DNA from: Burkholderia metallica
GTDB taxonomy: Bacteria; Pseudomonadota; Gammaproteobacteria; Burkholderiales; Burkholderiaceae
Direction of reading: 5' to 3'
DNA: 64,000 nucleotides
NCBI RefSeq assembly: GCF_902832845.1
Contig: NZ_CADFDB010000008.1
Coordinates: 124,001 to 188,000 of the forward strand
The translations under genes and the position numbers were made by a program. How positions within the stretch are numbered: the stretch's first letter is position 1; each line of letters opens with the position of its first letter. Of the stretch, positions 8,076-47,319 are shown piece after piece. The notes below the pieces were generated by a model, which had not been told where the DNA came from, ran no database searches, and saw only the letters and a list, made by a program, of their open reading frames with translations.

Positions 8076-8449
8076 CGTACTGAAGAACATGTGCATCGGC
8101 GACGCTCGGTGGCTTCGTCGGTGCATGGCGTGATCCGTTCCATCCCTGATTCCATGACGACGCGCCGCATGCCGCGGCGATCGTCCTCATCCTTCCTTTC
8201 AACCCCCTTCGATGTACGACATCGAACGGCCCCCGTTCTCCCTTTCCATCCCGCCGGCGACCGCGCGCCGATAGCGCGCGTCTGCCATTGCATTCCCCGC
8301 GGCGCTGATTAGGAAATGAATTTTTATTGGTTCTGCTCGCTCCGCCGCACTCGCATAGTGGCGCTGACGGCTATAGACAGCACGCAAGCTGCAACGGCCG
8401 CGTTCCCGGTGTCTTTGTTCATACGAATCTGCGAAAACGAGGAAGTGTC
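8076..8449 (+). other. 374-bp intergenic region upstream of the sulfur-storage locus
   Basis: No credible gene. The last ~120 bp is noticeably AT-richer (ATGAATTTTTATTGG around 8316-8330) and carries the TGACGGCTATAG element at 8365-8376, so the promoter of the rhodanese gene is expected here. Nothing else recognised. Confidence 0.5.
8365..8376 (+). promoter_or_regulatory. shared 12-mer TGACGGCTATAG (copy 1)
   Basis: The same 12 bases recur at 10162-10173 before the encapsulin gene. Copies lie 73 bp and 87 bp before their start codons. TATAGA/TATAGC inside could be a -10 hexamer of a promoter lacking a good -35, as in activator-dependent sulfur genes. The function is inferred. Confidence 0.4.
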
Positions 8450-8920
8450 ATGACGGTTGCATTGGAAGAACGAACCGCCGCGCAACAGGCGCTCGAAGAT
8501 GCGCGCGCGGCCGCGGCGTCGGCAGGCAAGCCCTATGCGGGCAGTGTCGCGCCGGAGACCGCGTGGGCGCTGTTCTCGTCCGGCGACGCGTTGCTGGTGG
8601 ACGTGCGCACGGCCGAGGAACGGAAATTCGTGGGCCACGTGCCGGAGTCGCTGCATGTGCCGTGGGCGACCGGCACGAGCCTGACGCGCAACCCGCGCTT
8701 CGTGCGCGAACTGGAAGCGAAGACGGGCAAGGACGCGGTCGTGCTGCTGCTGTGCCGCAGCGGCAACCGCTCGGCGCAGGCGGCCGAGGCCGCGGCGAAG
8801 GGCGGTTTCACGCAGGTGTTCAACGTGCTCGAAGGATTCGAGGGCGACCTCGACGACCGGCAGCATCGCGGCGGCAGCAACGGCTGGCGCTTTCGCGGTC
8901 TGCCGTGGGCGCAGGACTGA
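8450..8920 (+). CDS. rhodanese-domain sulfurtransferase
   Basis: Single-domain rhodanese of 156 residues, cytoplasmic. The active-site loop reads LLCRSGNRSA with the persulfide-carrying Cys at C102, preceded by the typical LLVDVRTAEER block (~49-59) and followed by FNVLEGFEGD and the C-terminal NGWRFRGLPW. Rhodaneses move sulfane sulfur between donors such as thiosulfate or cysteine desulfurase persulfides and acceptors. It opens the encapsulin locus, 32 bp before the serine acetyltransferase gene, and is a recurrent neighbour of family 2A encapsulins. I start at ATG 8450, preceded by GAGGAAG. The N-terminal 30 residues form a polar helix outside the rhodanese fold. Confidence 0.93.
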   Translation: MTVALEERTAAQQALEDARAAAASAGKPYAGSVAPETAWALFSSGDALLVDVRTAEERKFVGHVPESLHVPWATGTSLTRNPRFVRELEAKTGKDAVVLLLCRSGNRSAQAAEAAAKGGFTQVFNVLEGFEGDLDDRQHRGGSNGWRFRGLPWAQD

Positions 8921-8952
8921 TTGATTCACGGCCGTTACGGGGAGAAAGCAGC

Positions 8953-9894
8953 ATGGCCGCATTCGACATCGACGACATCGTTCAATCGCTGCAGACGGTG
9001 CGCCGCGCATGGCGCGAGAAGCAGCGGCGCTCGCTCGAACCGGGCGGGCGCGACCTGCCGGCGCGCGAGGCGCTCGCCCAGATCGTCGGCGCGCTGAAGG
9101 GCGTGCTGTTCCCGATGCGGCTCGGGCCGCCCGATCTGCGCCAGGAGAGCGAGAACCTGCACGTGGCACATGCGCTCGATGCGGCGCTGAATGCGCTGCT
9201 CGCGCAGGTGACGCTCGAGTTGCGCCATGCGGCGCGTCAGCGCCCTGCCGACGGCCCGCCGCCCGATCGCGTCGACGAAGTCGCATCGACGGCCGTGCAG
9301 GCATTCGCCGCGCGCCTGCCGGAGATACGCCGGCTGCTCGACAGCGACGTGCTGGCCGCGTTTCACGGCGATCCGGCGGCCGGCAGCGTCGACGAGGTGC
9401 TGCTGTGCTACCCGGGCATCCTCGCGATGATCCACCACCGGCTCGCGCACGAGCTGTACCGGCTCGGCCTGCCGCTGCTCGCGCGGATCATCGCCGAGCA
9501 GGCGCATGCGGAAACCGGCATCGACATTCATCCGGGCGCGCGCATCGGCGCGGGCTTCTTCATCGACCACGGCACCGGTGTGGTGATCGGCGAGACGGCG
9601 GTCATCGGCGAGCGCGTGCGCGTGTACCAGGCCGTCACGCTCGGCGCGAAGCGCTTCCCGCGCGACGCGGCCGGCCATCTGGAGAAAGGGCTCGCGCGCC
9701 ACCCGATCGTCGAGGACGACGTGGTGATCTACGCGGGCGCGACGATCCTCGGCCGCGTGACGATCGGGCGCGGCGCGGTGATCGGCGGCAACGTGTGGCT
9801 CACGCAGGACGTGCCGGCCGGCGAAAACGTCACGCAGGCCGTGCTGCGCAGCGAGGCGAACGCCACGCCACGCGCGGCGGCGCGCGTCGCGTAG
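8953..9894 (+). CDS. epsC: serine O-acetyltransferase (EpsC/SrpH type)
   Basis: Makes O-acetylserine from L-serine and acetyl-CoA, the carbon acceptor for sulfide in cysteine synthesis. The 313-residue protein has a long helical N-terminal half, then the serine acetyltransferase core: CYPGILAMIHHRLAHELY, HAETGIDIHPGARIG, FFIDHGTGVVIGETAVIG, and a left-handed beta-helix of hexapeptide repeats to GGNVWLTQDVP. Catalytic His residues fall in IDIHPG and FIDHGTG. It is the long-N-terminus form found next to family 2A encapsulins, not the housekeeping CysE. GGGGAGAAAG precedes ATG 8953. Its stop overlaps the AGGAGG ribosome site of the next gene, so the two are tightly coupled. Confidence 0.93.
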   Translation: MAAFDIDDIVQSLQTVRRAWREKQRRSLEPGGRDLPAREALAQIVGALKGVLFPMRLGPPDLRQESENLHVAHALDAALNALLAQVTLELRHAARQRPADGPPPDRVDEVASTAVQAFAARLPEIRRLLDSDVLAAFHGDPAAGSVDEVLLCYPGILAMIHHRLAHELYRLGLPLLARIIAEQAHAETGIDIHPGARIGAGFFIDHGTGVVIGETAVIGERVRVYQAVTLGAKRFPRDAAGHLEKGLARHPIVEDDVVIYAGATILGRVTIGRGAVIGGNVWLTQDVPAGENVTQAVLRSEANATPRAAARVA

Positions 9895-9902
9895 GAGGCA
9901 CG

Positions 9903-10124
9903 ATGAGCGAACTCATTCATCACTTCGGCGCCACCGTGCGCAAGCTGCGCGAAGCACGCACGTGGTCGCAGGAGCAGCTGGCCGAGCATGCGGGGCTGAA
10001 CCGTTCGTACGTCGGCGAGATCGAGCGCGGCGAGGCGATCGCGTCGATCGTCACGGCCGACAAGATCGCGCGCGCGTTCGACGTGTCGATCTCGACGCTG
10101 CTGCCGGGCGCGTACGTCACCTAG
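9903..10124 (+). CDS. small XRE-family helix-turn-helix regulator
   Basis: DNA-binding protein of 73 residues consisting of one Cro/C1-type domain: FGATVRKLREARTWSQEQLA, then the recognition region LNRSYVGEIERGE and a helix before KIARAFDVSISTLLPG. There is no ligand or oligomerisation domain. AGGAGG ends five bases before ATG 9903 and overlaps the acetyltransferase stop codon, so it is made from the same transcript. Its position directly before the encapsulin promoter region suggests it controls that promoter or the whole locus, but no operator can be assigned from one sequence. Confidence 0.88.
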   Translation: MSELIHHFGATVRKLREARTWSQEQLAEHAGLNRSYVGEIERGEAIASIVTADKIARAFDVSISTLLPGAYVT

Positions 10125-10161
10125 GCCGCCCGCCTCGATTCCCGTTCGGATGCACGCGACA

Positions 10162-10173
10162 TGACGGCTATAG
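10162..10173 (+). promoter_or_regulatory. shared 12-mer TGACGGCTATAG (copy 2)
   Basis: Identical to 8365-8376, in the 136-bp gap before the encapsulin gene. A CATAAGCAAT segment lies about 45 bp downstream. It implies the encapsulin-desulfurase pair has its own start site under the same control as the rhodanese unit. Confidence 0.4.
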
Positions 10174-10260
10174 CATGTTGAGCCGGCAGGGGCGTGCTTC
10201 CGATAATCACCCAGCGTCATAAGCAATCCCGTTTTTCATCTAAAGAACCCGGAGCCCCAC

Positions 10261-11193
10261 ATGTCGACCGTTGCAAGCGGCACGGCCGCGCTGAGCGATC
10301 ACGCCGCCCGCCAACTAGCGAACGCTACCAAGACCGTCCCCCAGCTTTCCACGATCACGCCGCGCTGGCTGACCCATCTGCTGCAATGGGTGCCGGTCGA
10401 GGCCGGTATCTATCGGCTGAACCAGGTGAAGAACCCGGAAGCCGTGCGCGCCGCGTGCACGCAGCTCGAGGACGAAAGCGTGCTGCCGCAGACCTTCGTG
10501 CCGTACGAGGAACAGCCGCGCGAGTATTTCCTGAACGCGGTGAGCACGGTGCTCGACGTGCATACGCGGATCTCCGATCTCTACAGCAGTCCTCACGACC
10601 AGATCAAGGAACAGCTGCGCCTGACGATCGAGACGATCAAGGAGCTGCAGGAAAGCCAGCTGATCAACAACCCCGACTACGGGCTGCTGGCCAACGTGAC
10701 CGACGAACAGCGGATCTTCCCGCTGACAGGCGCGCCGACGCCGGACGATCTCGACGAACTGCTGACGAAGGTATGGAAGGAGCCGGCGTTCTTCCTCACG
10801 CACCCGCTCGCGATCGCCGCGTTCGGCCGCGAATGCACGCGGCGCGGCGTGCCCCCGCCGACGGTCAGCCTGTTCGGCTCGCAGTTCCTCACGTGGCGCG
10901 GCATTCCGCTGATCCCGTCGGACAAGGTGCCGGTCGCGGACGGCAAGACCAAGATCCTGCTGCTGCGCGTCGGCGACAAGCGTCAGGGTGTCGTCGGCCT
11001 GTATCAGCCGGGCGTCGCGGGCGAGCAGGGCCCGGGCCTGTCGGTGCGCTTCATGGGGATCAACAACCAGGCGATCGCGTCGTACCTGATCTCGCTGTAT
11101 TGCTCGCTCGCGGTCCATTCGCCGGATGCGCTGGCTGTCCTCGATGACGTCGAAATCGCCAAGTTCCATGACTATCCCGACACCTACCGTTAA
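10261..11193 (+). CDS. srpI: family 2A encapsulin shell protein (SrpI type)
   Basis: Capsid-like protein of 310 residues that self-assembles into a protein nanocompartment. Family 2A encapsulins share the HK97 phage capsid fold and enclose a cysteine desulfurase; characterised members store elemental sulfur. Recognised from overall sequence: the N-terminal arm before TPRWLTHLLQWVPVEAGIYRLN, the acidic VPYEEQPREYFLNAVSTVLDVHTRISDLYSSPHDQ segment (residues ~81-115), the DYGLLANVTDEQRIFPLTGAPTPDDLDELL region and GIPLIPSDKVPVADGKTKILLLRVGD. The length matches the family; there is no extra cyclic-nucleotide-binding domain, which excludes family 2B. The next gene, the predicted cargo, overlaps its end by 26 bp, ensuring co-production. 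Confidence 0.94.
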   Translation: MSTVASGTAALSDHAARQLANATKTVPQLSTITPRWLTHLLQWVPVEAGIYRLNQVKNPEAVRAACTQLEDESVLPQTFVPYEEQPREYFLNAVSTVLDVHTRISDLYSSPHDQIKEQLRLTIETIKELQESQLINNPDYGLLANVTDEQRIFPLTGAPTPDDLDELLTKVWKEPAFFLTHPLAIAAFGRECTRRGVPPPTVSLFGSQFLTWRGIPLIPSDKVPVADGKTKILLLRVGDKRQGVVGLYQPGVAGEQGPGLSVRFMGINNQAIASYLISLYCSLAVHSPDALAVLDDVEIAKFHDYPDTYR

Positions 11194-13168
11194 TCCCGGC
11201 CTCGCCGGCGGCGACGCGCACGCGCTGCCGCACGCGCCGTTGCCGGCCGGTTTGCCCGACCCGGCGACGCTCGCGCGGCTCGCGTCCGAGTTCTTCGCGA
11301 CGCCGCCCGGGCAGGCTACCGCGCCCGGGGTGTCGGCAGGCAGCGGCGCGGCAGGCGGCGTGCCGTCGGCGTTGCCGGCCGCCGCGCCGATCCTCGCGTC
11401 GGTGAGCAACCCGGTACCGGGCGGCTCGCCGCTCGCGGGGCCGGGCGGCGCGGGCACCGGCGTGCCCGGTCTCGCGCTGCCGCAAGGGAAAGTGCCCGGC
11501 GCGAACCTCGCGCCGTCCGCGCCGACGCACGTGCTGTCGCTCGGCAACCGCGCCCCCGCGCTCGCGCCGCATGCGGCCGCGCAGAACGGGCTGCCCGACA
11601 ACGTCGTGTCGATCGCGCCGGCGCTCGAACCGCGTGTCGGCGGCGCCGCGCTCGGCGTGCCGCACGTGAATGCGCCGGCGCCGGAAAGCGCGGCGAAGGC
11701 GTCGCCGTACTACTTCACCGACGGTTCGCTGCAGGGCTGGCAGGCCACGCCGCAGGACATCGTCGTGCCGTCGAGCGGCCTTGCGTCGCCGGAAGCGTTC
11801 GGATTGCCGGGCGACGATGCGTTGCGCGAGCTGCTCGCCGTGCATCGCGACGCGCCGGTGTCGCGAGCGGGGGGCGCCGACGTGCCGCGCTACTTCATCG
11901 ACGATGCGCATGCAGCCGAGCCGCAAGGCCAGTTGCATCGTGGCGCGCACCCGCCGTTCGACGTGAACGCGATCCGCCGCGATTTCCCGATCCTGCAGGA
12001 GCGCGTGAACGGCAAGCCGCTCGTGTGGTTCGACAATGCGGCGACCACGCACAAGCCGCAGGCCGTGATCGACAGGCTCGCGTATTTCTATGCGCACGAG
12101 AACTCGAACATCCACCGTGCCGCGCATGCGTTGGCCGGCCGCGCGACGGATGCTTACGAGCACGCGCGGGAAACGGTGCAGCGCTTCATCGGCGCGTCGT
12201 CGCCCGACGAAATCGTATTCGTGCGCGGCACGACCGAGGCGATCAACCTGATCGCGAAAACGTGGGGCGTGCAGAACGTCGGCGAAGGCGACGAGATCGT
12301 CGTGTCGCATCTCGAGCATCACGCGAACATCGTGCCGTGGCAGCAGCTTGCCGCGCAGAAGGGCGCGACGCTGCGCGTGATCCCGGTCGACGATTCGGGG
12401 CAGGTGCTGCTCGACGAATACCGGAAGCTGCTCAACGACCGCACGAAGATCGTGTCCGTCACGCAGGTGTCGAACGCGCTCGGCACGGTCGTGCCGGTGA
12501 AGGAGATCGTCGAGCTTGCGCATCGTGCCGGCGCGAAGGCGCTCGTCGACGGCGCGCAGTCGATCTCGCACATGCGCGTGGACGTGCAGGCGCTCGACGC
12601 GGATTTCTTCGTGTTTTCCGGGCACAAGATCTACGGGCCGACCGGGATCGGCGTCGTGTACGGCAAGCGCGCGATCCTCGACGACATGCCGCCGTGGCAG
12701 GGTGGCGGCAACATGATCGCGGACGTGACGTTCGAGCGCACGGTGTTCCAGCCGCCGCCGAACCGGTTCGAAGCCGGCACCGGCAACATCGCGGATGCGG
12801 TGGGGCTTGGTGCGGCGCTCGACTACGTGAGCCGGGTCGGTATCGAGAACATCGCGCGCTACGAGCACGACCTGCTCGCCTATGCAACGAGCGTGCTCGC
12901 GCCGGTGCCGGGCGTGCGGCTCGTCGGCACCGCGCGCGACAAGGCGAGCGTGCTGTCGTTCGTGCTGAAGGGCTATGAAACCGAGGAGGTCGGGCAGGCG
13001 CTGAACGAAGAGGGCATCGCGGTGCGCTCGGGGCATCACTGCGCGCAGCCGATCCTGAGGCGTTTCGGGCTCGAAGCCACCGTGCGGCCGTCGCTCGCGT
13101 TCTACAACACGTGCGACGAAGTCGATGCGCTGGTGCGCGTCGTGCAGCGGCTGGCGACGCGACGTTGA
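11168..13168 (+). CDS. encapsulated cysteine desulfurase (SufS-like) with disordered cargo-targeting N-terminus
   Basis: PLP enzyme releasing sulfur from L-cysteine as a persulfide, predicted cargo of the preceding encapsulin. The SufS-type catalytic domain spans residues ~264-666: WFDNAATTHKPQ, the PLP lysine K487 in FFVFSGHKIYGP, and the persulfide cysteine C625 in RSGHHCAQP. Ahead of it are ~263 residues rich in Ala, Gly and Pro, with no globular look, broken by short islands: LPDPATLARLASEFFATPP (29-47), SPYYFTDG (179-186) and PRYFIDD (240-246). Such an extension is the known hallmark of family 2A cargo. ATG 11168 lies inside the encapsulin end; in-frame ATGs at 11126 and 11144 are possible but lie deeper in it. 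Confidence 0.95.
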   Translation: MTIPTPTVNPGLAGGDAHALPHAPLPAGLPDPATLARLASEFFATPPGQATAPGVSAGSGAAGGVPSALPAAAPILASVSNPVPGGSPLAGPGGAGTGVPGLALPQGKVPGANLAPSAPTHVLSLGNRAPALAPHAAAQNGLPDNVVSIAPALEPRVGGAALGVPHVNAPAPESAAKASPYYFTDGSLQGWQATPQDIVVPSSGLASPEAFGLPGDDALRELLAVHRDAPVSRAGGADVPRYFIDDAHAAEPQGQLHRGAHPPFDVNAIRRDFPILQERVNGKPLVWFDNAATTHKPQAVIDRLAYFYAHENSNIHRAAHALAGRATDAYEHARETVQRFIGASSPDEIVFVRGTTEAINLIAKTWGVQNVGEGDEIVVSHLEHHANIVPWQQLAAQKGATLRVIPVDDSGQVLLDEYRKLLNDRTKIVSVTQVSNALGTVVPVKEIVELAHRAGAKALVDGAQSISHMRVDVQALDADFFVFSGHKIYGPTGIGVVYGKRAILDDMPPWQGGGNMIADVTFERTVFQPPPNRFEAGTGNIADAVGLGAALDYVSRVGIENIARYEHDLLAYATSVLAPVPGVRLVGTARDKASVLSFVLKGYETEEVGQALNEEGIAVRSGHHCAQPILRRFGLEATVRPSLAFYNTCDEVDALVRVVQRLATRR

Positions 13169-13174
13169 CGGCAT

Positions 13175-13210
13175 GCGCTTGCGGCGGCCCGTGCGGGTCG
13201 CCGCAAGCGC
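13175..13210 (+). terminator. hairpin between convergent desulfurase and kinase-like genes
   Basis: Arms GCGCTTGCGGCG (13175-13186) and CGCCGCAAGCGC (13199-13210) pair perfectly over 12 bp with a 12-base loop, seven bases after the desulfurase stop. No long T-run in either direction; it probably serves both convergent transcripts. Confidence 0.75.
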
Positions 13211-13225
13211 CTTGTCACCGCACGA

Positions 13226-14119
13226 TCAGAACCGCACGACCTGCTTCTGCTCAACGCTGAACCCGTCGCGCAGCACGCTCGCCGAATCCGCGAAATAGCG
13301 CCGGGTTTCCGCGAGCAGATCGGTGTTGCCGCGACGGCAGAACACGACCCCCGATCCTTCCTCCGTGAGCAGTTCGTCGATCAGCGATTCGGGTTGCGCG
13401 CTATCGGCGAGATGGACGTTCTGTACGCCGTGCGCGAGCGCATCGAGCGCTTCCCGCACGCAAGGCGCTGCAGCGGCGGCCGGATGCTCGGCCAGCCATT
13501 GTTCGAGTTCCGTGATGCCGTAGAGCCCGGCGAGCGCGTCGAGTTCGCGCAGCAGCGCGCCGTCGACCATCATTACCAGTGTCACCGCGCCCGTACGCTG
13601 TGCGAAGAGGCTGCCCACGCGTTCGGCGCGCAGCAGGTGATCATGGCCCGCGTCGTCGGGCGCGACCGGCATCACGACGGGCACCAGTCCGTTCTCGACG
13701 AACGCGTTCAGCGCGGCGCCGTCGAAGCGGGCGACCTCGCGCGTATCGAGCCGGTCGGAATCCGTGCTTGCAACCAGCAGGCCGCCGTCGTGACCGTCGA
13801 TGCCGATCGCCTTGGCGCCGTGACTGCCGATCAAGCGCACCAGTTCATGATTGATGCCGGCCATCGCCGCGTGAACGGCGTGGATCGATTGCGTATCGGA
13901 TGCGGCCGGTACGCGCTGGACGACGATCGGGCGAACCCCGGTGAGCGCGAGCAGCGCGACGTCCTGCGCGAAGGCCGCGCGGGCGTGCGCCTCGCTCGCC
14001 GCACCGCCTTCGACGATGACGACGGTCTGCCCGTGCAGGGCCTGCATGAACGGTAGCGAGCGCGCCAGTCCGGCGGCGCGACGCGATGTAAGGGTGGAAC
14101 TTTCAGGGTCTGGGAACAT
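13226..14119 (-). CDS. degenerate amino-acid-kinase-fold protein (ArgB/ArgA-like), probably non-catalytic
   Basis: Protein of 297 residues related to N-acetylglutamate kinase and the kinase-like domain of N-acetylglutamate synthase: LPFMQALHGQTVVIVEGG (22-39), then LALTGVRPIVV, AKAIGIDGHDGGLLVA and VTLVMMVDGALL. Key features are missing: the phosphate-binding Lys of K-x-GG is V36, the GGGPQI acetylglutamate loop reads QRVPAAS, and the later K-D-GG is H-D-GG. No acetyltransferase domain follows. A regulatory or binding role is more likely than kinase activity. I use ATG 14119; an in-frame GTG at 14158 is an alternative. It follows the EIIA gene closely on the same strand. Confidence 0.75.
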   Translation of the reverse strand: MFPDPESSTLTSRRAAGLARSLPFMQALHGQTVVIVEGGAASEAHARAAFAQDVALLALTGVRPIVVQRVPAASDTQSIHAVHAAMAGINHELVRLIGSHGAKAIGIDGHDGGLLVASTDSDRLDTREVARFDGAALNAFVENGLVPVVMPVAPDDAGHDHLLRAERVGSLFAQRTGAVTLVMMVDGALLRELDALAGLYGITELEQWLAEHPAAAAAPCVREALDALAHGVQNVHLADSAQPESLIDELLTEEGSGVVFCRRGNTDLLAETRRYFADSASVLRDGFSVEQKQVVRF

Positions 14120-27415: not shown

Positions 27416-28492
27416 TCACGCGCGCTTCCGCAGCGACGGCCGCAGCACGTCGGCGAGCGGGCGCGGGTCGATCCAGTCGGCGACGTCGAAGTCGGCTTCC
27501 AGAAAACCGTGGACGTGCAGGAAGGTCTTGAAGTCGTCGAGCGCGGCGACCGATTCGTCGTCGAGGTTGACGCCGAGATGCCGGTGCAGCTGGTTGCCGT
27601 ACGCGGCGCGGACCCAGTCGATCGACGACGCGGTTTCGCCGGCCACGTAATGCGCGGTTTCGTCGGGGTGCGTGCCGGCCCAGTCGCCGGCCGCGACCAC
27701 GAGTTTCAGGAAGCCGGCGACGATGTCCGGATGATTCGCGAGCACGTCCGCGTTGACGGTCAGCGGGCGCGGCGTGCCGTTGTTGTTGCGGATCGCGCGC
27801 TCCGGATGAAAGCCGATGTCGATCACCACGTGCGCGCCGATCAGCTGCCCGATCTCGAGGCCGGTCGAGCCCTTCACGTAGATCGCGTCGACTTCGCCGC
27901 GCAGCAGCGCGCCGGCTTCGGCCGCATACAGCGCGCGGCTCGAAAAACCGTGCGGCGACGCGAACAGGTCCGCCGCACGCGCCGGTCCGACGGCTTGCAG
28001 CGTGCGTGCGCGCACGTCGACGAGCTCGACGTCGCGGGTGGTCAGCCCGTCGAGGCTCAACGCGTTGACGAAACCGCGCAGCGCCGACGCGCGAAAGATG
28101 TCGATGCGGTCGTCGGGGCGGCTCGGGATCGCGATGCGGCGCCCGCGCAATGCCTTCACGGAGCGGATGCCCGACTCGGGTCGCGCGAGGATCAACTGCG
28201 ATTCGTCGACCCACGACAGCCCGATCACGCGCGTATTCGCGCCGTTCGAGCGCGCCCACATCGCAGGGATGCTGCCGCCCTGGCGGAACGACTGCGCGAG
28301 CGTGTGATCGCTGATCGACGACACGTCGTGCCGCGTGTCGCCGCGCGGCGAGCGGATCGCGACGCCGTCGGCCGACGTTTCGCCGTTGAGCCAGCCGAGA
28401 TGCACGGCGATGCCGAGCGGGGTCGGCACGGGCGATCGGGCGTACCAGAACGTCTGCTGCTTGTCCGATGACGAATCGGGCCTGTCTGTCAT
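27416..28492 (-). CDS. DszB-like protein with degenerate active site
   Basis: Protein of 358 residues in the 2'-hydroxybiphenyl-2-sulfinate desulfinase (DszB) family, built on the periplasmic-binding-protein fold but without any signal peptide, so cytoplasmic. DszB catalyses C-S cleavage with Cys27, His60 and Arg70. Here the Cys motif reads YARSPVPTPLG with S20 in place of Cys, and the His position is I60; R70 in SFRQGGSIP is kept. Two sister proteins at 30171 and 33275 retain all three. This one therefore probably binds rather than cleaves its ligand. First gene of a leftward operon with an ABC importer. ATG 28492 has GAGGGA upstream. Confidence 0.85.
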   Translation of the reverse strand: MTDRPDSSSDKQQTFWYARSPVPTPLGIAVHLGWLNGETSADGVAIRSPRGDTRHDVSSISDHTLAQSFRQGGSIPAMWARSNGANTRVIGLSWVDESQLILARPESGIRSVKALRGRRIAIPSRPDDRIDIFRASALRGFVNALSLDGLTTRDVELVDVRARTLQAVGPARAADLFASPHGFSSRALYAAEAGALLRGEVDAIYVKGSTGLEIGQLIGAHVVIDIGFHPERAIRNNNGTPRPLTVNADVLANHPDIVAGFLKLVVAAGDWAGTHPDETAHYVAGETASSIDWVRAAYGNQLHRHLGVNLDDESVAALDDFKTFLHVHGFLEADFDVADWIDPRPLADVLRPSLRKRA

Positions 28493-28575
28493 GGGTGAGA
28501 TTCCCTCTCTGCGTAAGCATGGTTGAAGCCCGGTCGCGCACGGTGTCGGTGTCGCACGCGCGGGCCGGTCAACGT

Positions 28576-28591
28576 TGCAAGTTCCGGGCCA
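28576..28591 (-). promoter_or_regulatory. sigma-54 promoter, DszB-like/ABC importer operon
   Basis: TGGCCCGGAACTTGCA on the minus strand, one mismatch from TGGCACG-N4-TTGCA, 84 bp before the ATG at 28492. Confidence 0.8.
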
Positions 28592-28665
28592 GTGAACGGA
28601 AACCGCGCGGCCGTACGCGGCGCGGGCGTCGCGCGGGAGGGGCGGTGCTCGCGCCGATGCATGGC

Positions 28666-28713
28666 CTGTTGCGCCAGCAACAGTCGCGCCGGCCGCTGTT
28701 GCGCGCGCAGCAG
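28666..28713. promoter_or_regulatory. tandem enhancer palindromes
   Basis: CTGTTGC-GCCA-GCAACAG (28666-28683) is perfect; CTGTTGC-GCGC-GCAGCAG (28696-28713) has one mismatch. Centres are 30 bp apart, close to three helical turns, as expected for cooperative binding on one DNA face. Confidence 0.75.
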
Positions 28714-28861
28714 CGGTGCGGTCGGTGCAGCACTGCGGTACGGGCGTGTTTCGCCATGGCCGGCAACTGCCGGTACGCGCTGCACGAATCCCGCCGATGC
28801 CCGGCCGACAAGGCGTCGTGTGCATTCATCGACGGGCCGGCACGCGCCGTGGCGAGCGCGT

Positions 28862-28877
28862 TGGCACACCGCGTGCT
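28862..28877 (+). promoter_or_regulatory. sigma-54 promoter, SsuD-like operon
   Basis: TGGCACACCGCGTGCT: perfect TGGCAC at -24 and TGCT with GC at -12, 70 bp before the ATG at 28948. Confidence 0.75.
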
Positions 28878-28947
28878 TTACAGCGCAGCACACGCGCGGC
28901 ACGCCGATGCCGCACGCAATCCGAATGGCCCGACCAGGAGAACTCCG

Positions 28948-30120
28948 ATGGCTGTTGAATTTCTGTGGCGCTTGCCGATGCATGGCGACGGCCGGCGCGC
29001 ACACGACCTGCATACGCGTGGCGAATGGAACCGCCAGCGCGCATCGCGCGTCGCGCCGAAAGTCGACGACGACGATTTCGGCTACATCGACTATCTGTCG
29101 CAGGTCGCGCGCGCGGCCGATATCGCCGGCTTCCACGGCGCGCTGATTCCGATCTTTCGTTTTACCGAGGAACCGTGGGTCGTGGCGGCCGCGCTGGCGC
29201 GCGAGACGCGCCGGCTGCGGCTGCTGATCGCGCTGCAGCCGCATTTCGTGCATCCGGTCTATGCGGCGCAGATGGCCGCAAGCCTGCAGCGGATCAGCCG
29301 CGGGCGCGTCGAGTGGAACGTCGTCACGGGCGGCGGCGGCCCCGACCAGCGTGCATACGGCGACTTCATCGATCACGACAGCCGCTATGCGCGCACCGAC
29401 GAATTCCTCGATGTCGTGAAGGGCGTTGCGGCCGGCGACCCGTTTACGTTCGACGGCCGCTTCTACCGGGTCGAAGCCGGTGGCCTGCTGCCGCCGCTGA
29501 GCGGCCAGAAGCCGCCGCGCATCTACCTGGCCGGCGCGAGCGACGCCGCGCTCGCGGTCGCCGCGAAGCATGGCGACGTGCACCTGAGCTGGGGCGAGCC
29601 GCTCGCGAAACAGAAGGAGGTGGTCGATGCGGCGCGCCGCGCGCTCGATCGCCAGCGTGCCGAGCGCGACCTGCGCTTCGGCATGCGCATCGACATCCTG
29701 GCGCGCGAGACCGAAGAGCAGGCATGGGCCGAGTTGCGGCAGATGTTCGCGACGGTGGGCGACGTGACGCGCAACGGCTTCGGCGGGCGCGGCGAATCGT
29801 CGGAGTCGGTCGGCGCGAAACGCCAGTTCGCGCTGCACCAGGGCAATACGCAGCACTTCGACGACCTGATCGTCGGCCCGAACCTGTGGGCGGGGATGTC
29901 GCAGATTCGCGGCGGCCCCGGTTGCGTGATCGTCGGCAGCCACGAGCAGGTGGCCGAGCGGCTCGCGGAATACGTCGACATCGGCGTCTCGACATTCATT
30001 CTCGCCAGCAACCCGCATCTCGAGGAGGCGTACCGCGTGGGCGAGGAAGTGCTGCCGCTCGTCGACGGCGCGCTGAACGCGCGCGGCACGCAGGCGGCGC
30101 TGCGCGTGGCCGGCGCATGA
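28948..30120 (+). CDS. FMNH2-dependent monooxygenase, SsuD/LLM family
   Basis: Flavin-dependent monooxygenase of 390 residues in the bacterial luciferase-like family, closest in pattern to alkanesulfonate monooxygenase SsuD. It uses reduced FMN supplied by a separate reductase. Visible: MAVEFLWRLPMHGDG, ADIAGFHGALIP, LRLLIALQPHFVHPVYAAQMAASLQRIS, the GRVEWNVVTGGGG flavin-phosphate region, KPPRIYLAGASDAAL, and GMSQIRGGPGCVIVGSHEQVAERL near the end. First gene after the sigma-54 promoter at 28862, with CAGGAGAACTCCG before the ATG. A DszB-like desulfinase follows 50 bp later, so a sulfone or sulfonate to sulfinate to sulfite route is plausible. No flavin reductase gene is in the window. Confidence 0.92.
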   Translation: MAVEFLWRLPMHGDGRRAHDLHTRGEWNRQRASRVAPKVDDDDFGYIDYLSQVARAADIAGFHGALIPIFRFTEEPWVVAAALARETRRLRLLIALQPHFVHPVYAAQMAASLQRISRGRVEWNVVTGGGGPDQRAYGDFIDHDSRYARTDEFLDVVKGVAAGDPFTFDGRFYRVEAGGLLPPLSGQKPPRIYLAGASDAALAVAAKHGDVHLSWGEPLAKQKEVVDAARRALDRQRAERDLRFGMRIDILARETEEQAWAELRQMFATVGDVTRNGFGGRGESSESVGAKRQFALHQGNTQHFDDLIVGPNLWAGMSQIRGGPGCVIVGSHEQVAERLAEYVDIGVSTFILASNPHLEEAYRVGEEVLPLVDGALNARGTQAALRVAGA

Positions 30121-30170
30121 GCGCGACGGCATTCCCGCGCCATCCAACGACATCGACAAGGACCTTCACC

Positions 30171-31217
30171 ATGACGACACTCGCTGCGCAGGCCACGGCC
30201 TGCGACGCACTCTGGTACACGCGCTGCCCGGTGCCCACCGCACTCGGCATCGCCGTGCATCGCGGCTGGTTCGACGAGGAGTTCGGGCCGGACGGCATCA
30301 CGCTGAATTCGCTGCAGGAGACGGCCGACGCCGGCAAGCGCGAATCGCATTTCGATCACAGTCTGCCGCACTCGTTCCGGCAGGGCGGAAACATTCCCGC
30401 GCTGTGGGCGCGGGCACGCGGCGCCGACACACGCGTGATCGGCCTGTCGTGGACCAACGAGTTCCAGGCGATCGTCACGCTGCCCGATCGCGGCATCCGC
30501 TCGGTGCGCGATCTGCGCGGCCGGCGGCTCGGGTTGCCGCGCCACCCGATCAGCATCGACTTCTGGCGGGCGGCCGCGCTGAAAGGCTTCCTGAGCGCAC
30601 TCGAACTGGAAGGGCTCGGGCACGGCGACGCCGAATGGGTCGACCTGCCCGACGAACGCGAACGCCGCACCGGGCCCGCTTCGTTTGCGCGTGGCCCGCA
30701 CGAGTACGGGCTCGAGATCGCGGCGCTCGTGCGCGGCGAGGTCGACGCGGTGTTCGTGAAAGGCGTCGAAGGGCTCGAGACCGTGCATCTGATCGACGCG
30801 CAGGTCGTCATCGATCTCGGCGCGCACCCCGATCCGCTCGTGCGGATCGGCAACGGCACGCCGCGCACGCTGACCGTCGACCGTGCGCTGATCGACGCGC
30901 GTCCCGATCTCGTGAGCCGCTTCCTGTCGGTGGTGGTGGGGGCGGGCGACTGGGCCGCACGCCATCCCGCGGAGACGGTCGCCTATATCGGTCGTGAGAC
31001 GCGCGCATCCGACGAGTGGGTGCGTTATGCGTACGGCGCGGACGTGCACCGCCATCTGGAGACGGGGCTCGCGCAGACGTCGATCGACGGGCTGGTCGCG
31101 TTCAAGGACTTCCTCGTCGAGTGGGGCTTTCTCGAACAGGATTTCGATGCGCGCGCGTGGATCGACCCGGCGCCGTTCACGCGTATCGACCGGCAACGCC
31201 ATGCGTGGGTCGCGTAG
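30171..31217 (+). CDS. DszB-like desulfinase with intact Cys-His-Arg triad
   Basis: Predicted sulfinate desulfinase of 348 residues, cytoplasmic, no leader. The DszB catalytic pattern is complete: C19 in WYTRCPVPTALG, H60 in RESHFDHSL and R70 in HSFRQGGNIP. In DszB the Cys attacks the sulfinate sulfur, releasing sulfite. The rest follows the binding-protein fold (RGIRSVRDLRGRRLGLPR, ALVRGEVDAVFVKGVEGLE, VVIDLGAHPDP). It directly follows the SsuD-like monooxygenase and precedes tonB in the same transcript. The substrate need not be a biphenyl; homologues may act on alkyl or aryl sulfinates. Misannotation as an ABC substrate-binding protein is likely. Confidence 0.85.
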   Translation: MTTLAAQATACDALWYTRCPVPTALGIAVHRGWFDEEFGPDGITLNSLQETADAGKRESHFDHSLPHSFRQGGNIPALWARARGADTRVIGLSWTNEFQAIVTLPDRGIRSVRDLRGRRLGLPRHPISIDFWRAAALKGFLSALELEGLGHGDAEWVDLPDERERRTGPASFARGPHEYGLEIAALVRGEVDAVFVKGVEGLETVHLIDAQVVIDLGAHPDPLVRIGNGTPRTLTVDRALIDARPDLVSRFLSVVVGAGDWAARHPAETVAYIGRETRASDEWVRYAYGADVHRHLETGLAQTSIDGLVAFKDFLVEWGFLEQDFDARAWIDPAPFTRIDRQRHAWVA

Positions 31218-31250
31218 CGCGCCGCGGCGCGTCATTGCAAGGAGTCGAGC

Positions 31251-32072
31251 ATGACAGGTCTGACGATCGAATACGGCGTGCCGCCGGCACGCCGGCACGC
31301 GGCGCGTGCTGCGCCGCGTGCGGGTGCGAACGGCGTGGCGGGCCGGGCGGCGGCGGCGACGCGTCCGCCGTGTGCTTCACCTTCGGCACGGCCGGATGCG
31401 ACGAAGGCGAAGCCGGGCGCGTGGCGCGTCACGGCGGCGATTGCGCTCGCGGTCACGGCGCTGCATGCGGGTGTCGCGCTGCTGGCCGCGCGCGTACCTG
31501 CCGCGCCGCCCGTGCAGCCGCCGCGACCGCTGCCGATGACGGTCGAACTGACGCGGCCGCCCGAACCGTTGCCGCAGACGGCGCACCCGCCGCCACCGGC
31601 GGTGCCGCCGAAGCCGCCGAAGCAGGCGCCGACCCCGCCGAAGCCGCGTGCTGCCGTCGCGCATCCGGCGCCGGTGCCGGCCGCCGCGCCGCAGGTCACC
31701 CGCGAGGCGGCCCCCGCGACGGCGGCGCCCGCCGTCGCCACGCAAGCCGCACCTGCTCTCGCGCCGGCTGCGCCTGCCGCGCCCGTGCGCGAAACCGCAC
31801 CGGTCGGCGACGCGGCCTACCTGCGCAACCCGGCGCCCGACTATCCGGCGTTCGCGCAGGACCAGGGCTGGGAAGGGCGCGTCGTGCTGCGCGTGCACGT
31901 GCTCGCGAGCGGTTCGCCCGATTCCGTAGAGGTCCGCACGAGCAGCGGCCGCCGCATGCTCGACACCGCGGCGGTGGCCGCCGTGAAGCGCTGGACGTTC
32001 GTGCCCGCGAAGCGCGGCGACGAAGCGGTCGACGGCTGGGTCAACGTGCCGATCGATTTCAAGCTGGGCTGA
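31251..32072 (+). CDS. tonB: TonB energy-transducing protein
   Basis: TonB-family protein of 273 residues, linking the inner-membrane proton force to outer-membrane receptors. Features in order: a basic N-terminus longer than usual (~57 residues), a membrane anchor VTAAIALAVTALHAGVALLAA (~60-80), a Pro-rich periplasm-spanning part (PPRPLPMTVELTRPPEP onward), and the C-terminal TonB domain (YLRNPAPDYPAFAQDQGWEG, then LDTAAVAAVKRWTFVPAKRG). AAGGAGTCGAGC precedes ATG 31251. Its place between DszB-like and exbB genes shows a transducer dedicated to the organosulfur receptor at 35779. Confidence 0.93.
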   Translation: MTGLTIEYGVPPARRHAARAAPRAGANGVAGRAAAATRPPCASPSARPDATKAKPGAWRVTAAIALAVTALHAGVALLAARVPAAPPVQPPRPLPMTVELTRPPEPLPQTAHPPPPAVPPKPPKQAPTPPKPRAAVAHPAPVPAAAPQVTREAAPATAAPAVATQAAPALAPAAPAAPVRETAPVGDAAYLRNPAPDYPAFAQDQGWEGRVVLRVHVLASGSPDSVEVRTSSGRRMLDTAAVAAVKRWTFVPAKRGDEAVDGWVNVPIDFKLG

Positions 32073-32113
32073 CCCGCCGGGCAGCCCGCCACATTTTCAA
32101 AGGAACTCACATC

Positions 32114-32830
32114 ATGAACGGTATCCCGACCACCTTCATCGTCCAGGGCGCGCTCTGGCTGCTCGTCGTCTTCTCCGTCGTCACGTGGACGCTGATCGTC
32201 GTGAAGGCGATCCAGAGCCTGCGGGCGAGTGCGCGCAACCGACGTTACGTCGGCGCGTTCTGGGCCGCGAACAGCTTCCACGAGGCCGCCGCGCTCGACG
32301 GCGCGAACAGCCCGGTGGGCGAACTTGCCGCGACGGGCTTCGACGCGCTGCGACGCGCCGACGAGAGCAGCGCACACGATCTCGAACACAGCTGGAGCCG
32401 TCACGACCTGCTCGAACGGCATCTGCGGCAGCAGATCCACAACGCGCGCCGGCGCGAGGAGGCGGGGCTGGCGGTGCTCGCGTCGATTGGCAGCACCGCG
32501 CCGTTCGTCGGCCTGTTCGGCACCGTGTTCGGCATCATCCATGCGCTGACCGCGATCACGCACAGCGCGTCGGCGAGCATCGACGTCGTAGCCGGACCGA
32601 TCGGCGAGGCGCTCGTCGCGACCGGGATCGGCATCGCGGTCGCCGTGCCGGCCGTGCTCGCGTACAACTTCTTCGTTCGTCGCGTGAAGGCCGCGTCGGC
32701 CGATCTCGATGCGTTCGCCACCGATTTCGTCACGCTCGCGCAGAAAGCCGGCTTCCGCGTGCCGCCCGCTGCCGCCGCACCCGCGCCGGCACGCCGTGCC
32801 GACGACACCCGCCGGGAGGTGTTCGCATAA
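32114..32830 (+). CDS. exbB: ExbB/TolQ proton-channel subunit
   Basis: Inner-membrane proton-channel subunit of 238 residues that powers TonB. Three membrane segments: ALWLLVVFSVVTWTLIVVKA (~13-32), LASIGSTAPFVGLFGTVFGIIHAL (~121-144) and IGEALVATGIGIAVAVPAVLAYNFF (~162-186), the last two carrying the MotA/TolQ/ExbB signature. AAGGAACTCACATC precedes ATG 32114. It overlaps exbD by one base (TAATG). Confidence 0.94.
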   Translation: MNGIPTTFIVQGALWLLVVFSVVTWTLIVVKAIQSLRASARNRRYVGAFWAANSFHEAAALDGANSPVGELAATGFDALRRADESSAHDLEHSWSRHDLLERHLRQQIHNARRREEAGLAVLASIGSTAPFVGLFGTVFGIIHALTAITHSASASIDVVAGPIGEALVATGIGIAVAVPAVLAYNFFVRRVKAASADLDAFATDFVTLAQKAGFRVPPAAAAPAPARRADDTRREVFA

Positions 32831-33240
32831 TGGCCTTCTCCTCTTCCTCCGACAACGACGACGTGCTCAGCGAAATCAACATCACGCCGCTCGTCGACGT
32901 GATGCTCGTGCTGCTCGTCGCCTTCATCGTCACGGCGCCGCTGCTCAACAACGCGGTGCACGTGAATCTGCCGAACACCGTCGCCACGGCGCCGGCCGAT
33001 CGCAAGCCGAACGTCACCGTGAGCGTCGACGACAAGGGCGTCGTGTATCTCGACAAGCGGTCGGTCGCGCTGGCCGCGGTGCCGGCCGAGCTGGCCGCGC
33101 TGAAGGCCGGCCGGCCCGACGTCGCGCTCGACCTGCAGGCCGACGAGCACGTGCCGTACGGCACCGTCGCGAAGCTGATGGCCGCGATCGAGCATGCGGG
33201 CATCACGCGGCTGTCGGTGCTGACCGCGCCGCGCGGCTGA
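32830..33240 (+). CDS. exbD: ExbD/TolR proton-channel subunit
   Basis: Partner of ExbB, 136 residues. A single membrane helix contains the essential proton-carrying Asp in INITPLVDVMLVLLVAFIV (~17-35), followed by a periplasmic domain (NAVHVNLPN, VTVSVDDKGVVYLDK, GTVAKLMAAIEHAGI). Starts inside the exbB stop codon. Completes the dedicated TonB-ExbB-ExbD complex. Confidence 0.94.
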   Translation: MAFSSSSDNDDVLSEINITPLVDVMLVLLVAFIVTAPLLNNAVHVNLPNTVATAPADRKPNVTVSVDDKGVVYLDKRSVALAAVPAELAALKAGRPDVALDLQADEHVPYGTVAKLMAAIEHAGITRLSVLTAPRG

Positions 33241-33274
33241 CGCGCGGTTCACGACTCTCTTGGCGAACGCATCC

Positions 33275-34351
33275 ATGAGCATCACGGCTTCCTCCAACGT
33301 CCAGTCGATCTGGTACACGCGCTGTCCGGTGCCGACGCCGCTCGGCATCGCCGCGCATCTCGGCTGGCTCGACAGCGAATTCGCCGGCGACGGCATCACC
33401 GTGCGCGCGCTGCAGGAAAGCCGGCACGCGGCGCTGCATCATGCGCACGTCGATCATTCGCTCGACAACGCATTCCGGCAGGGCGGCAGCATTCCCGCGC
33501 TGTGGGCACGCGCGGCCGGCGCCGAGACGCGCGTGGTCGCTCTGACCTGGGTCGACGAGGCGCAGGCGATCGTCGCGCTGCCGGAAAGCGGCCTGAAGCG
33601 GCCGAAAGACCTGCGCGGGCGCCGCATCGGCCTGCCGCGCCGCGACGGCGAGCGCATCGACATATTTCGTGCGGCGGCGCTGCGCGGCTTCGTCAGCGCG
33701 CTGTCGCTCGACGGGCTCGGCCCCGCCGACGTCGAATGGATCGACGTGCCGGCGTCGAACCTGCGTGCGCCGGTGTCGACACCGGCGACGCGCGACGCGG
33801 CATTCAGTCATCCCGCGAGCCTGTCGAGCCGCCGGCTCTATGCGGCCGAAGCGGCCGCGCTCGTGCGCGGCGAAGTCGACGCGATCTACGTGAAGGGGTC
33901 GCTCGGACTCGAAACCGCGCACCTGATCGGCGCGCAGCCGGTCGTCGACATCGGCTTTCATCCCGATCCGCAGATCCGCATCAACAACGGGTCGCCGCGG
34001 CCGCTGACCGTCAATGCGTCGACGCTCGAACGCCATCCCGACATCGTCAGCCGCTTCCTCGCGCGCGTGACCGACGTCGAAGGCTGGGCGCGCGAGCACG
34101 AGCAGGAAGTGCTCGGCTATCTCGGCCGCGAGACGGGATCGGGCCATGACTGGCTGAGGCTCGCGTACGGCGCGGACGTGCACCGGCGGCTGCGCACGGA
34201 TCTCGACGAAGCGTCGATCGCCGCGCTCGACGATTTCAAGCGATTCCTCGTCGAATGGCGATTCCTGCCAGCGGACTTCGACGTGCGTGCGTGGATCGAC
34301 CGGCGCGCGCTCGACGGCATCGCGACGCTGTCTCGCGACTCCGCGCGGTGA
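33275..34351 (+). CDS. DszB-like desulfinase with intact Cys-His-Arg triad (third paralogue)
   Basis: Sulfinate desulfinase-like protein of 358 residues without a leader. C17 in WYTRCPVPTPLG, H58 in HHAHVDHSL and R68 in NAFRQGGSIP align with Cys27, His60 and Arg70 of DszB. Later segments (LKRPKDLRGRRIGLPRRDG, RLYAAEAAALVRGEVDAIYVKG) are closest to the degenerate paralogue at 27416, with which it shares DIFRASALRGFV-like and NNGTPRPLTVNA-like stretches, so those two probably arose by duplication. Different substrate range from the copy at 30171 is plausible. ATG 33275 is preferred over TTG 33260. Its stop overlaps the start of the MFS gene. Confidence 0.85.
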   Translation: MSITASSNVQSIWYTRCPVPTPLGIAAHLGWLDSEFAGDGITVRALQESRHAALHHAHVDHSLDNAFRQGGSIPALWARAAGAETRVVALTWVDEAQAIVALPESGLKRPKDLRGRRIGLPRRDGERIDIFRAAALRGFVSALSLDGLGPADVEWIDVPASNLRAPVSTPATRDAAFSHPASLSSRRLYAAEAAALVRGEVDAIYVKGSLGLETAHLIGAQPVVDIGFHPDPQIRINNGSPRPLTVNASTLERHPDIVSRFLARVTDVEGWAREHEQEVLGYLGRETGSGHDWLRLAYGADVHRRLRTDLDEASIAALDDFKRFLVEWRFLPADFDVRAWIDRRALDGIATLSRDSAR

Positions 34352-35565
34352 GCGCGCCGGCACGCGTCGCCGACGCATGGCGGCGCGAGCGTTTCACCGG
34401 CGGTTTCATGCTGCTGGCGCTCGCGAGCGGCACGACGATCAGCATGGCGCAGCTCGCGACGACACTGTACGCGCTCGCGCTCGGCGTCGACAGCGCGCGG
34501 CTCGGCATCATCGCGGCGATGGAGCCGCTCGGTATCGCGTTGATGACGCTGCCGGCCGGGCTGCTCGTCGCGCGCTACGGCGCGCGGCGCGTGTACTTCG
34601 TCGCAAGCATGGGGCCGATGCTGCTCAATCTCGTCGTGCCGTTGACCGGCGCGTGGCCGCTGATCGCGCTCACGCAAGTGTTGATCGGGCTGTGCATCCC
34701 GTTCCGGATCGTGTCGATCAACGGCGTGTTCCTCGCGCGTCTCGCGCAGATCGGCTTCGCGCGCGCCGGCTGGTACCGTGCGGCGATGTCGGTCGGTACC
34801 GGCATGGTCGGACCGTGGCTCGCGAGCTGGCTGATCGGCACGCATGGCGCGGTCGCGACGTTCTGTGCGGCATCGGCGAGCTTCGCGGGCATGGCGCTGT
34901 TCAGCCGGACGCTGCTCGGCGACGCGGAGCCAGCGGCACGCGGTGCGCAACCGGAACCCGGCGGCCTGCGCGCATTGCTGGCGCTCGCATGGCGTCGCGA
35001 CGTGCGCGAGCAGCTCGTGCTGGAAGCCGTGAACAGCGCGACACGTTCGCTCGTCGGCGCGTATACGGTGGTGCTGGCGATCCAGTCGCTCGGGCTGTCG
35101 CAAACGAAAGCCGTCGCGCTGCTGACGCTGCAGGGCGTCGTCGCGGTGATCGCGCTGTTCGGGCTCGGGCATGTCGCGCAGCGGATGACGGCGCGCCGTT
35201 GCCAGGCGCTCAGTCTTGCCGGTGGCGTGGCCGGGTTGCTCGCGCCGGGTCTTGCGCATGACGTATGGATCGTCGGTGCGGGTCTCGCCGCGCTGTGCGC
35301 CGGGTCGTCGCTGCTGCATCTCGTCAACATGCAACGCCTCGGCCGTCTCCCGGCCGACAAGGCTCAGGTATCGAGCCTCTACAACCTCGCGTCGATGACG
35401 GGCGCGTTCTGCGGCCCGCTGGCCGGCAGTGCGCTCGTGCCGGTCGTCGGGTTGCCGGGCATGTTTCTGTGCTGGCTGCCTGTCGTCGCGCTGGTTGCAT
35501 TCGCGTTACGCGTTTCGACGGGGCGGCGCGACGCATCGCCGTCCGTGACTGCAAAGCTGTCCTGA
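34348..35565 (+). CDS. MFS transporter in the organosulfur operon
   Basis: Major-facilitator protein of 405 residues with about twelve hydrophobic segments; helices 1-2 read FMLLALASGTTISMAQLATTLYALALG and the loop 2-3 motif is GLLVARYGARRVYF. The GTG start at 34348 overlaps the stop of the DszB-like gene (GTGA), so it is coupled to it. It may export the desulfurised organic product or sulfite, or import substrate across the inner membrane; the sequence does not decide. Last gene before the independently promoted TonB-dependent receptor. Confidence 0.85.
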   Translation: MSAPARVADAWRRERFTGGFMLLALASGTTISMAQLATTLYALALGVDSARLGIIAAMEPLGIALMTLPAGLLVARYGARRVYFVASMGPMLLNLVVPLTGAWPLIALTQVLIGLCIPFRIVSINGVFLARLAQIGFARAGWYRAAMSVGTGMVGPWLASWLIGTHGAVATFCAASASFAGMALFSRTLLGDAEPAARGAQPEPGGLRALLALAWRRDVREQLVLEAVNSATRSLVGAYTVVLAIQSLGLSQTKAVALLTLQGVVAVIALFGLGHVAQRMTARRCQALSLAGGVAGLLAPGLAHDVWIVGAGLAALCAGSSLLHLVNMQRLGRLPADKAQVSSLYNLASMTGAFCGPLAGSALVPVVGLPGMFLCWLPVVALVAFALRVSTGRRDASPSVTAKLS

Positions 35566-35700
35566 CGACCATCGGCTCGGGTGTTGCGGAATCCGCGCGG
35601 TGTTGCGTGACAAGCAGTTTGCTTCCCGCCACAGATGCGCATGCAGCAACACCTGCCCCCCAAGCATGCCGGAAGCCCCGTGCGACGGGCTTCTCGATGC

Positions 35701-35716
35701 TGGCATCCGAATTGCA
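35701..35716 (+). promoter_or_regulatory. sigma-54 promoter, TonB-dependent receptor
   Basis: TGGCATCCGAATTGCA: TGGCA at -24 and TTGCA at -12 with exact spacing, 63 bp before the ATG at 35779. Upstream, TGTTGC occurs at 35582 and 35601 and GCAACA at 35646, half-sites of the palindrome seen at the other promoters. Confidence 0.8.
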
Positions 35717-35778
35717 ACAGGTCACCCGTGCGTCGCGCACGCACGTGCGTTCAACCGATCAAACAGGATGACTCATCG

Positions 35779-38148: not shown

Positions 38149-39108
38149 TCAGATCAGCAGCGACAGCGTCCCGAACAACGCGAGATCCGCCTTGCGCGCC
38201 GAGCGCGCATGCCCGCGGATCACGTGCAGCAGGCAGTCGATGAAGCAGCGCGCCGCGTCGCTGAGCGTGCTGCTGCGCCGCGTGACGATCCCGAGCTCGT
38301 CCGGCTCGAAGGTCTCTTTCAACGGCAGCACGCGCATCCGTTCGCCGAACTGCGGCACGGACGCGAGGATCGTCGGACACCAGGTGCACATGTCGGCCTG
38401 TTCGAGCATCGTCTGCAGCATGGACAGCGACTGCGCGCGCACGATGCGCCGCTCGTCGATCTGCGCGCCGTTGCGCGTGAACAGGGTGTCGACGAGCGCG
38501 GCCTGGCCGTCGGCCGTGGAATTCAGCACCCAGTCGTCGTCGAGCAGGTCGTGGATCGACCGCGCGCGCTCGCGCGGATGCCCGGCGCGCACCATGACCG
38601 ACATGTCGTAGCGCAGCAGCGGCTCGAACGAGAATTCCTGCGCGCTGCCCGGCTGCATGTGCCTGAGCGCGAAATCCATGCTGCCGTCGCGCAGCAGCGG
38701 CTGGGCGACGGCCGCCAGCGCCTCGTAGAGTTCGAGCCGCACGTCGGGCATCCGTTCGCGAAAGCGCAGCACCGTTTCCGCGAGGAACGTCAGCGTCAGC
38801 CACGGCGTGACGCCGATGCTCAGCCGGCCCTCGACGCGGCCGCGCATGCGTTCGAGATCGCTCTGCGCGTGTTCGAGCTGCTTCAGCACGAGCTTCGCGT
38901 GCGTGAGCAGCGTTTTCCCGTATTCGGTGAAGCCGATTCCCTCCGGCGCGCGCACGAGCAGCGGCAGGCGTTCGCTGGCCTCCAGTTCGCGCAGCGCGCG
39001 CGTGACGGCCGCCTGCGACAGCCCGAGCGAGCGCGCCGCGCCGCGAATGCTCCCGGCCTCCGCGCTCGCGACGAGCGCCTGCAACTGATGAAGCTTGATC
39101 GTGCTCAT
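38149..39108 (-). CDS. LysR-family transcriptional regulator
   Basis: LysR regulator of 319 residues. N-terminal helix-turn-helix IKLHQLQALVASAEAGSIRGAARSLGLSQAAVTRALRELE, then a co-inducer domain with GRLSIGVTPWLTLTFL and MDFALRHMQPG. Patterned like CbL/TdcA-type activators. It is divergent from the M20 amidohydrolase gene 137 bp away, which it probably controls, and converges with the TonB receptor gene. The ligand is unknown. Confidence 0.92.
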   Translation of the reverse strand: MSTIKLHQLQALVASAEAGSIRGAARSLGLSQAAVTRALRELEASERLPLLVRAPEGIGFTEYGKTLLTHAKLVLKQLEHAQSDLERMRGRVEGRLSIGVTPWLTLTFLAETVLRFRERMPDVRLELYEALAAVAQPLLRDGSMDFALRHMQPGSAQEFSFEPLLRYDMSVMVRAGHPRERARSIHDLLDDDWVLNSTADGQAALVDTLFTRNGAQIDERRIVRAQSLSMLQTMLEQADMCTWCPTILASVPQFGERMRVLPLKETFEPDELGIVTRRSSTLSDAARCFIDCLLHVIRGHARSARKADLALFGTLSLLI

Positions 39109-47304: not shown

Positions 47305-47319
47305 CCCGGGAGCGACACG

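Follow-up and report, generated by a model that had tools for sequence, protein, structure and literature searches.

A family 2A encapsulin operon with desulfurase cargo in Burkholderia metallica and a conserved promoter site that accompanies its XRE gene

The 64,000-nucleotide stretch of Burkholderia metallica DNA analysed here (the window) carries five consecutive genes which, with strong support from sequence comparison, constitute a family 2A encapsulin with a desulfurase cargo in a Burkholderia. By computation, the identities of the genes, two conserved sites and their positions, and a tie between the site and a small XRE gene across genomes were established. Here it is proposed, as a slightly favoured reading, that this is a two-unit operon for cysteine-derived sulfur, both promoters being under one small XRE controller. 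A first-pass annotation of the same DNA had recognised the encapsulin and its cargo, an interpretation that stands, and had missed the regulatory anatomy, namely the two promoter regions, the common site and the controller-like XRE protein. To our knowledge, little has been established about what makes bacteria produce encapsulins; a regulator, two sites and the positions of those sites are now predicted for it, and the site would set apart a subtype of family 2A operon that is under such control.

The five genes claimed in the first-pass annotation were all recovered from open reading frames and family models, on the + strand between 8450 and 13168. These include a rhodanese with a CRSGNR loop (8450-8920, +, 156 aa; PF00581 55.3 bits, cut-off 22.2), an EpsC-type serine O-acetyltransferase (8953-9894, +, 313 aa; NCBIfam EpsC 159.9, cut-off 150; cysE model 170.8, under its cut-off of 210.65), an XRE helix-turn-helix protein (9903-10124, +, 73 aa; HTH_3 60.4, cut-off 23), the family 2A encapsulin shell (10261-11193, +, 310 aa; NF041162 encap_f2a 524.7, cut-off 380) and a cysteine desulfurase cargo with a long N-terminal extension (11168-13168, +, 666 aa; NF041166 962.3, cut-off 800). 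Their description as one directional block is right for orientation and fails for a single unit, since promoter-like regions at 8322-8382 and 10162-10207 indicate that there are probably two transcription units. A genome search found a single shell gene; the desulfurase has further matches at four places (29-34% identity), and the acetyltransferase has others with identities of 60, 48 and 31%. The 60% match, encoded elsewhere in the genome (G000:C6:431466-432320, L157), is another acetyltransferase of this type.

The shell was present in 52 of the 65 genomes of the genus, the window genome included. Relatives were compared in the best 80 of at least 587 confirmed loci, those nearest to the window shell (hereafter the best 80), and 69 of these 80 have all five genes in the same order. 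Among the other 11, a cargo match is missing in L014, L044, L068 and L071, where the stretches end at contig ends; the acetyltransferase is missing in L046, the XRE gene in L082, L085 and L086, and L056, L061 and L062 have nothing of the upstream genes. In Paraburkholderia xenovorans LB400 there are two complete operons, L041 on chromosome 3 and L048 on chromosome 2, and each has the XRE gene and the P2 site described below. The gene set itself is an already known type of operon, as passages of Andreas & Giessen 2021 (PMC8346489) describe 1281 operons of family 2A, in which desulfurases, acetyltransferases and rhodaneses are the accessory genes with the highest enrichment, and report desulfurase encapsulin systems in B. 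cepacia. The desulfurase, acetyltransferase and rhodanese are thus shared with the proteobacterial operons of that paper, which names B. cepacia; no XRE gene or common site was found in the passages considered.

The claim of an SrpI-type shell agrees with the score against NF041162 given above and with the SrpI-like family PF19307 (335.2, cut-off 22.8), and the 310-aa protein is an SrpI-like shell without a cNMP domain, by which family 2A is recognised. The 2B model NF041163 is also passed (411.8, cut-off 400), over model positions 217-449 of 450, a match of the C-terminal half that leaves the N-terminal part of the model uncovered; judged from these matches, family 2A fits the shell clearly better than 2B. 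Its solved relatives include 8t6r (562 bits, shell residues 8-310) and SrpI (6x8m, 487 bits). An HK97 fold is predicted from the homology to 8t6r at 562 bits; the AlphaFold model of the shell itself, made with a 16-row alignment, has a pLDDT of 38.

The cargo has the linked desulfurase domain together with an N-terminal loading domain and its motifs, as expected of family 2A. The longest frame starts at 11126, and the start common to relatives is 11168; with the latter, the 26-bp overlap of the shell and cargo genes reported in the first-pass annotation is reproduced, as the shell stop and the cargo ATG delimit 11168-11193. An in-frame ATG with an equal 26-nt overlap occurs in all 53 cargo-matching loci of L008-L062 and in 0 of the 23 cargo-matching loci of L063-L087, both within the best 80. 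The catalytic domain is related to 8kg1 (667 bits) and to chains of SufS, and the Lys and Cys singled out earlier correspond to Lys487 (FSGHK) and Cys625 (SGHHC), which align with the same residues in solved SufS-type desulfurases and which we take to be the active-site residues. In the extension, LARLASEFFA (11270-11299, +, residues 35-44) and ASPYYFTDG (11699-11725, +, residues 178-186) resemble the conserved cargo motifs LARLANEFFS and AASPYYFLDG, and the N-terminal domain is reported as essential for loading (passages of Nichols et al. 2021, PMC8049743). Because the search of relatives used strict patterns (motif 1 found in 46 of 76 loci and motif 2 in 15 of 76, from the best 80), motif presence is claimed for the window protein only. 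The Synechococcus elongatus SrpI/CyD system (6x8m; PMC8049743) is alike in shell family (487 bits), in its desulfurase cargo with an N-terminal domain and in the two motifs, and differs from the proteobacterial operon described here, which adds a rhodanese, an acetyltransferase and an XRE gene; in PMC8049743 the words rhodanese, regulator and operon barely appear.

Two promoter-like regions precede the rhodanese (P1) and the shell (P2). At P1, an operator-like site, TGACGGCTATAG, forms an imperfect dyad (8365-8382, +) centred at about +8 from the inferred start, and a -10-like hexamer, CATAGT (8354-8359, +), was read by eye and is kept, unchanged or in a variant form, in many relatives; this -10 was not reported by the promoter scan of 8076-13300. 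The same scan gave TTGAGC-N18-GATAAT (10178-10207, +) as promoter P2, the sole sigma-70-like promoter found (one, 0.3 expected). Its operator-like site, TGACGGCTATAGCATGTTGA (10162-10181, +), is joined to the -35. A -10-like hexamer follows the P2 site in 72 of the 74 XRE-bearing loci of the best 80, compared with 417 of 3700 cases with shuffled tails, and the spacer is 17 bp in 51 of these loci and 18 bp in 21 (L072 and L073 misfit), which places the centre of the P2 site at -43/-42 or a base beyond. Transcripts are predicted to begin near 8366 at P1 and near 10214 at P2.

The word TGACGGCTATAG stops 74 nt short of the rhodanese gene and, in its second copy, 88 nt short of the shell gene, counted to the first base of each, and these two are the only exact copies of the 12-mer in the 7.55-Mb genome; one-mismatch matches occur in four further places, three of them within long open frames. 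Within the window, matches with up to two mismatches are not rarer than chance (three found, 2.0 expected), and in 5000 shuffles of the two upstream stretches a shared word of at least 12 arose 23 times. When P1 and P2 were compared locus by locus with the word not supplied, the same word or a variant was recovered in many relatives and unrelated words in others. In distant genera the rhodanese-side site is a clear dyad, for example TGATGGTTATCGCCATCAA (L079, L087); the palindromy of the P2 site is weak (3-7 of 10 positions). Tight covariation of the P1 and P2 sites within genomes was looked for and is not claimed, because P1 is near constant and P2 variable.

Further upstream of P1 lies the block TTTTATTGGTT (8322-8332, +), and a similar TTTTTATTSGTT block stands before the rhodanese in many of the best 80, being counted in 61 of 74 with a lenient pattern written post hoc; TTTTTATTSGTT-like forms reach distant genera. 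The word TTTTATTSGTT has two exact copies in the window genome, at 8322-8332 and in L118. As a candidate box of a sulfur regulator it gained no support from L118, where no sulfur gene was recognised on inspection of the listed open reading frames. The block is perhaps a candidate site for a further activator or the input of a sulfur regulator. The shell leader ATAAGCAATCCCGTTTTTC (10219-10237) is strongly conserved in Burkholderia-type loci and similar in L061 and L062, both of which are without the operator; as a site common to other genes, the leader ATAAGCAWTCCCGTTTTTC was rejected, since its sole genome match with up to three mismatches is the leader itself.

The association of the site with the XRE gene was followed with a matrix of 16 positions, built from 36 distinct words of L008-L062 and scanned on both strands of the best 80. 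The P2 site ranked first in 71 of the 74 XRE-bearing loci, a result that is partly circular for L008-L062 because the training words were chosen by their TATAG core; in the remaining three it ranked 2, 2 and 3, with the P1 site first. In the held-out set of 25 loci (L063-L087, also within the best 80), the P2 site ranked first in all 22 that bear the XRE gene. The P1 site is weaker than P2, its best matrix score being at least 10 in 64 of the 74 XRE-bearing loci and below 10 in the other 10, and the background is such that a score of 12 was reached by 6 of 1529 random 300-bp stretches on one strand. Six of the best 80 are without an XRE match, and the P2 site is absent from five of them and present in L056.

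A search of 399 genomes from the order gave 12 matches to the extended P2 site TGNYGKCKATAGCNKGTTGA, in 12 genomes, and one to the reversed pattern; all 12 sit 95-131 bp upstream of a family 2A shell match on the same strand. The shell family was matched in 40 of these genomes, 39 of them above the cut-off; the loci compared also number 39, as 41 rows minus the window's own and G671 (below the cut-off), with G467 represented twice. The site occurs in 13 of 14 shell loci with an XRE gene just upstream vs none of 25 without (Fisher p 1.7e-9, kinship uncorrected). When L208 and L209 are left out, being the same as L031 and L034 of the matrix training set, the figures are 11 of 12 vs 0 of 25 (p 1.4e-8, kinship uncorrected). 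Among the loci with the gene, L196 is the sole exception, carrying a degenerate CATAGCCGGTTGA at the equivalent position, and the families f2, f187, f190, f202 and f231 hold both states, the site tracking the gene in each; with 206 bp of upstream sequence in L174 and 900 bp in L179, these two loci offer little space to reveal an XRE gene. In a wider class sample, five full-length shell loci without an XRE match (L120-L124, of which L123 also belongs to the order sample) have no site near the shell, nor do L125/L126, which belong to a single genome whose match falls short of the cut-off.

Some genomes have the parts of the operon separated. In Caballeronia glebae, L056 has shell and cargo with no upstream genes in 6 kb and retains the P2 site, and L148, on another contig, has the rhodanese, the acetyltransferase, the XRE gene (70% identical) and the P1 site, with no shell match in 6.5 kb. 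The shell copies of L061 and L062 have neither XRE gene nor site, and the second operons of those genomes (L150 and L149) have both. A case against the tie is L086, which keeps a P1-like dyad in a genome where no XRE ortholog was found (best match 43%).

The nearest solved relatives of the XRE protein by sequence are the restriction-modification controller proteins C.BclI (E 4.3e-12) and C.AhdI (4.9e-10), and a fold search with its model (pLDDT 92) returned C.BclI and C.AhdI chains as the top five matches; it is a small protein consisting of a helix-turn-helix only, with controller fold and sequence. Like these proteins in size, fold and closest sequence, it is also associated with a quasi-palindrome with central TATA. 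Controller boxes are usually paired and of the GACTtatAGTC type, and controllers usually both activate and repress (passages of PMC3115060), whereas in the window each promoter has one TGAYGKCTATAG box, which retains the central TATA with different arms, and the XRE gene is adjoined by the acetyltransferase and the shell in an operon without restriction or methylase genes. Because there is one box per promoter and the arms differ, the protein is not called a controller protein, and by analogy it would work like one. The position of the P1 site can be compared with that of C.Kpn2I, which blocks elongation from a downstream site (passages of PMC6237814). In L031, the rhodanese upstream region has a second copy, CTGTCTATAGC, slightly past the P1 site, reminiscent of the paired boxes of controllers.

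For XRE binding, the sign of regulation and the timing, we infer the following scheme. P1 would transcribe the rhodanese, the serine O-acetyltransferase and the XRE controller, and P2 the shell and desulfurase, the XRE protein, probably a dimer, binding the one quasi-palindrome (TGAYGKC-TA-TAG...) that is present in each promoter region. At P1, where the site is at the inferred transcription start, it would repress; at P2 the site, centred near -43 and touching the -35, would place it as an activator, and activators usually sit at about this position. Shell and cargo would lag the P1 enzymes, with the delay set by controller build-up. A broader reading, possible but held at somewhat less than even confidence, is that a restriction-modification-type controller was recruited in Burkholderiales to time organelle building, turning its own early unit (rhodanese, acetyltransferase and controller) off and shell and cargo on from a second promoter in a delayed, possibly all-or-none, fashion. 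Searches of open PubMed Central papers pointed to no published account of such control by an XRE protein and two sites, nor to any paper on an encapsulin together with a controller protein.

XRE proteins are often repressors, and the site at P2 reaches the -35 as well, both of which would suit a plain autorepressor acting on both promoters and holding the system off unless overridden by a signal or a sulfur regulator. This is considered unlikely, as the centre near -43 and the 17-18 bp spacer in 72 of the 74 XRE-bearing loci of the best 80 suit an activator, and controller proteins are capable of both signs (passages of PMC3115060). That another regulator, for example a LysR-type sulfur regulator, binds the site, with the XRE gene merely adjoining, is very unlikely: the further conserved block before P1 speaks for it, but the site tracks the presence of the XRE gene across loci, C. 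glebae keeps it though the XRE gene is on a different contig, and the genome has no other exact copy of the site and therefore no wider regulon.

In the favoured reading, the enzyme steps follow from the protein families and published work. The desulfurase would be pulled into the shell through its N-terminal extension and would remove sulfur from cysteine there, the acetyltransferase would supply the precursor of new cysteine and the rhodanese would deal with sulfur outside the shell, the last two roles following the published proposal in passages of PMC8346489. The compartment as a whole would thereby store sulfur. Channelling in place of storage, with the encapsulated desulfurase passing sulfur at the shell to the rhodanese of the operon, destined for particular targets, was put forward in passages of Andreas & Giessen 2021 (PMC8346489). 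The rhodanese lies within the operon in 77 of the best 80 loci, which is in keeping with channelling. Against it, sulfur storage by a homologue has reportedly been published, in a paper on Acinetobacter, and channelling is here placed on the unlikely side.

Elsewhere in the window, a sulfatase (PF00884) and then a formylglycine-generating-enzyme-like protein (PF03781) are encoded at 45346-48366, with an NlpA-lipoprotein domain right after the pair (about 48465-49160), forming a sulfur-scavenging neighbourhood. Also within the window, genes for a luciferase-like monooxygenase, TonB, ExbD, an MFS transporter and a TonB-dependent receptor stand in series at 28468-38088, and this row is adjoined by a LysR regulator (38152-39108, -).
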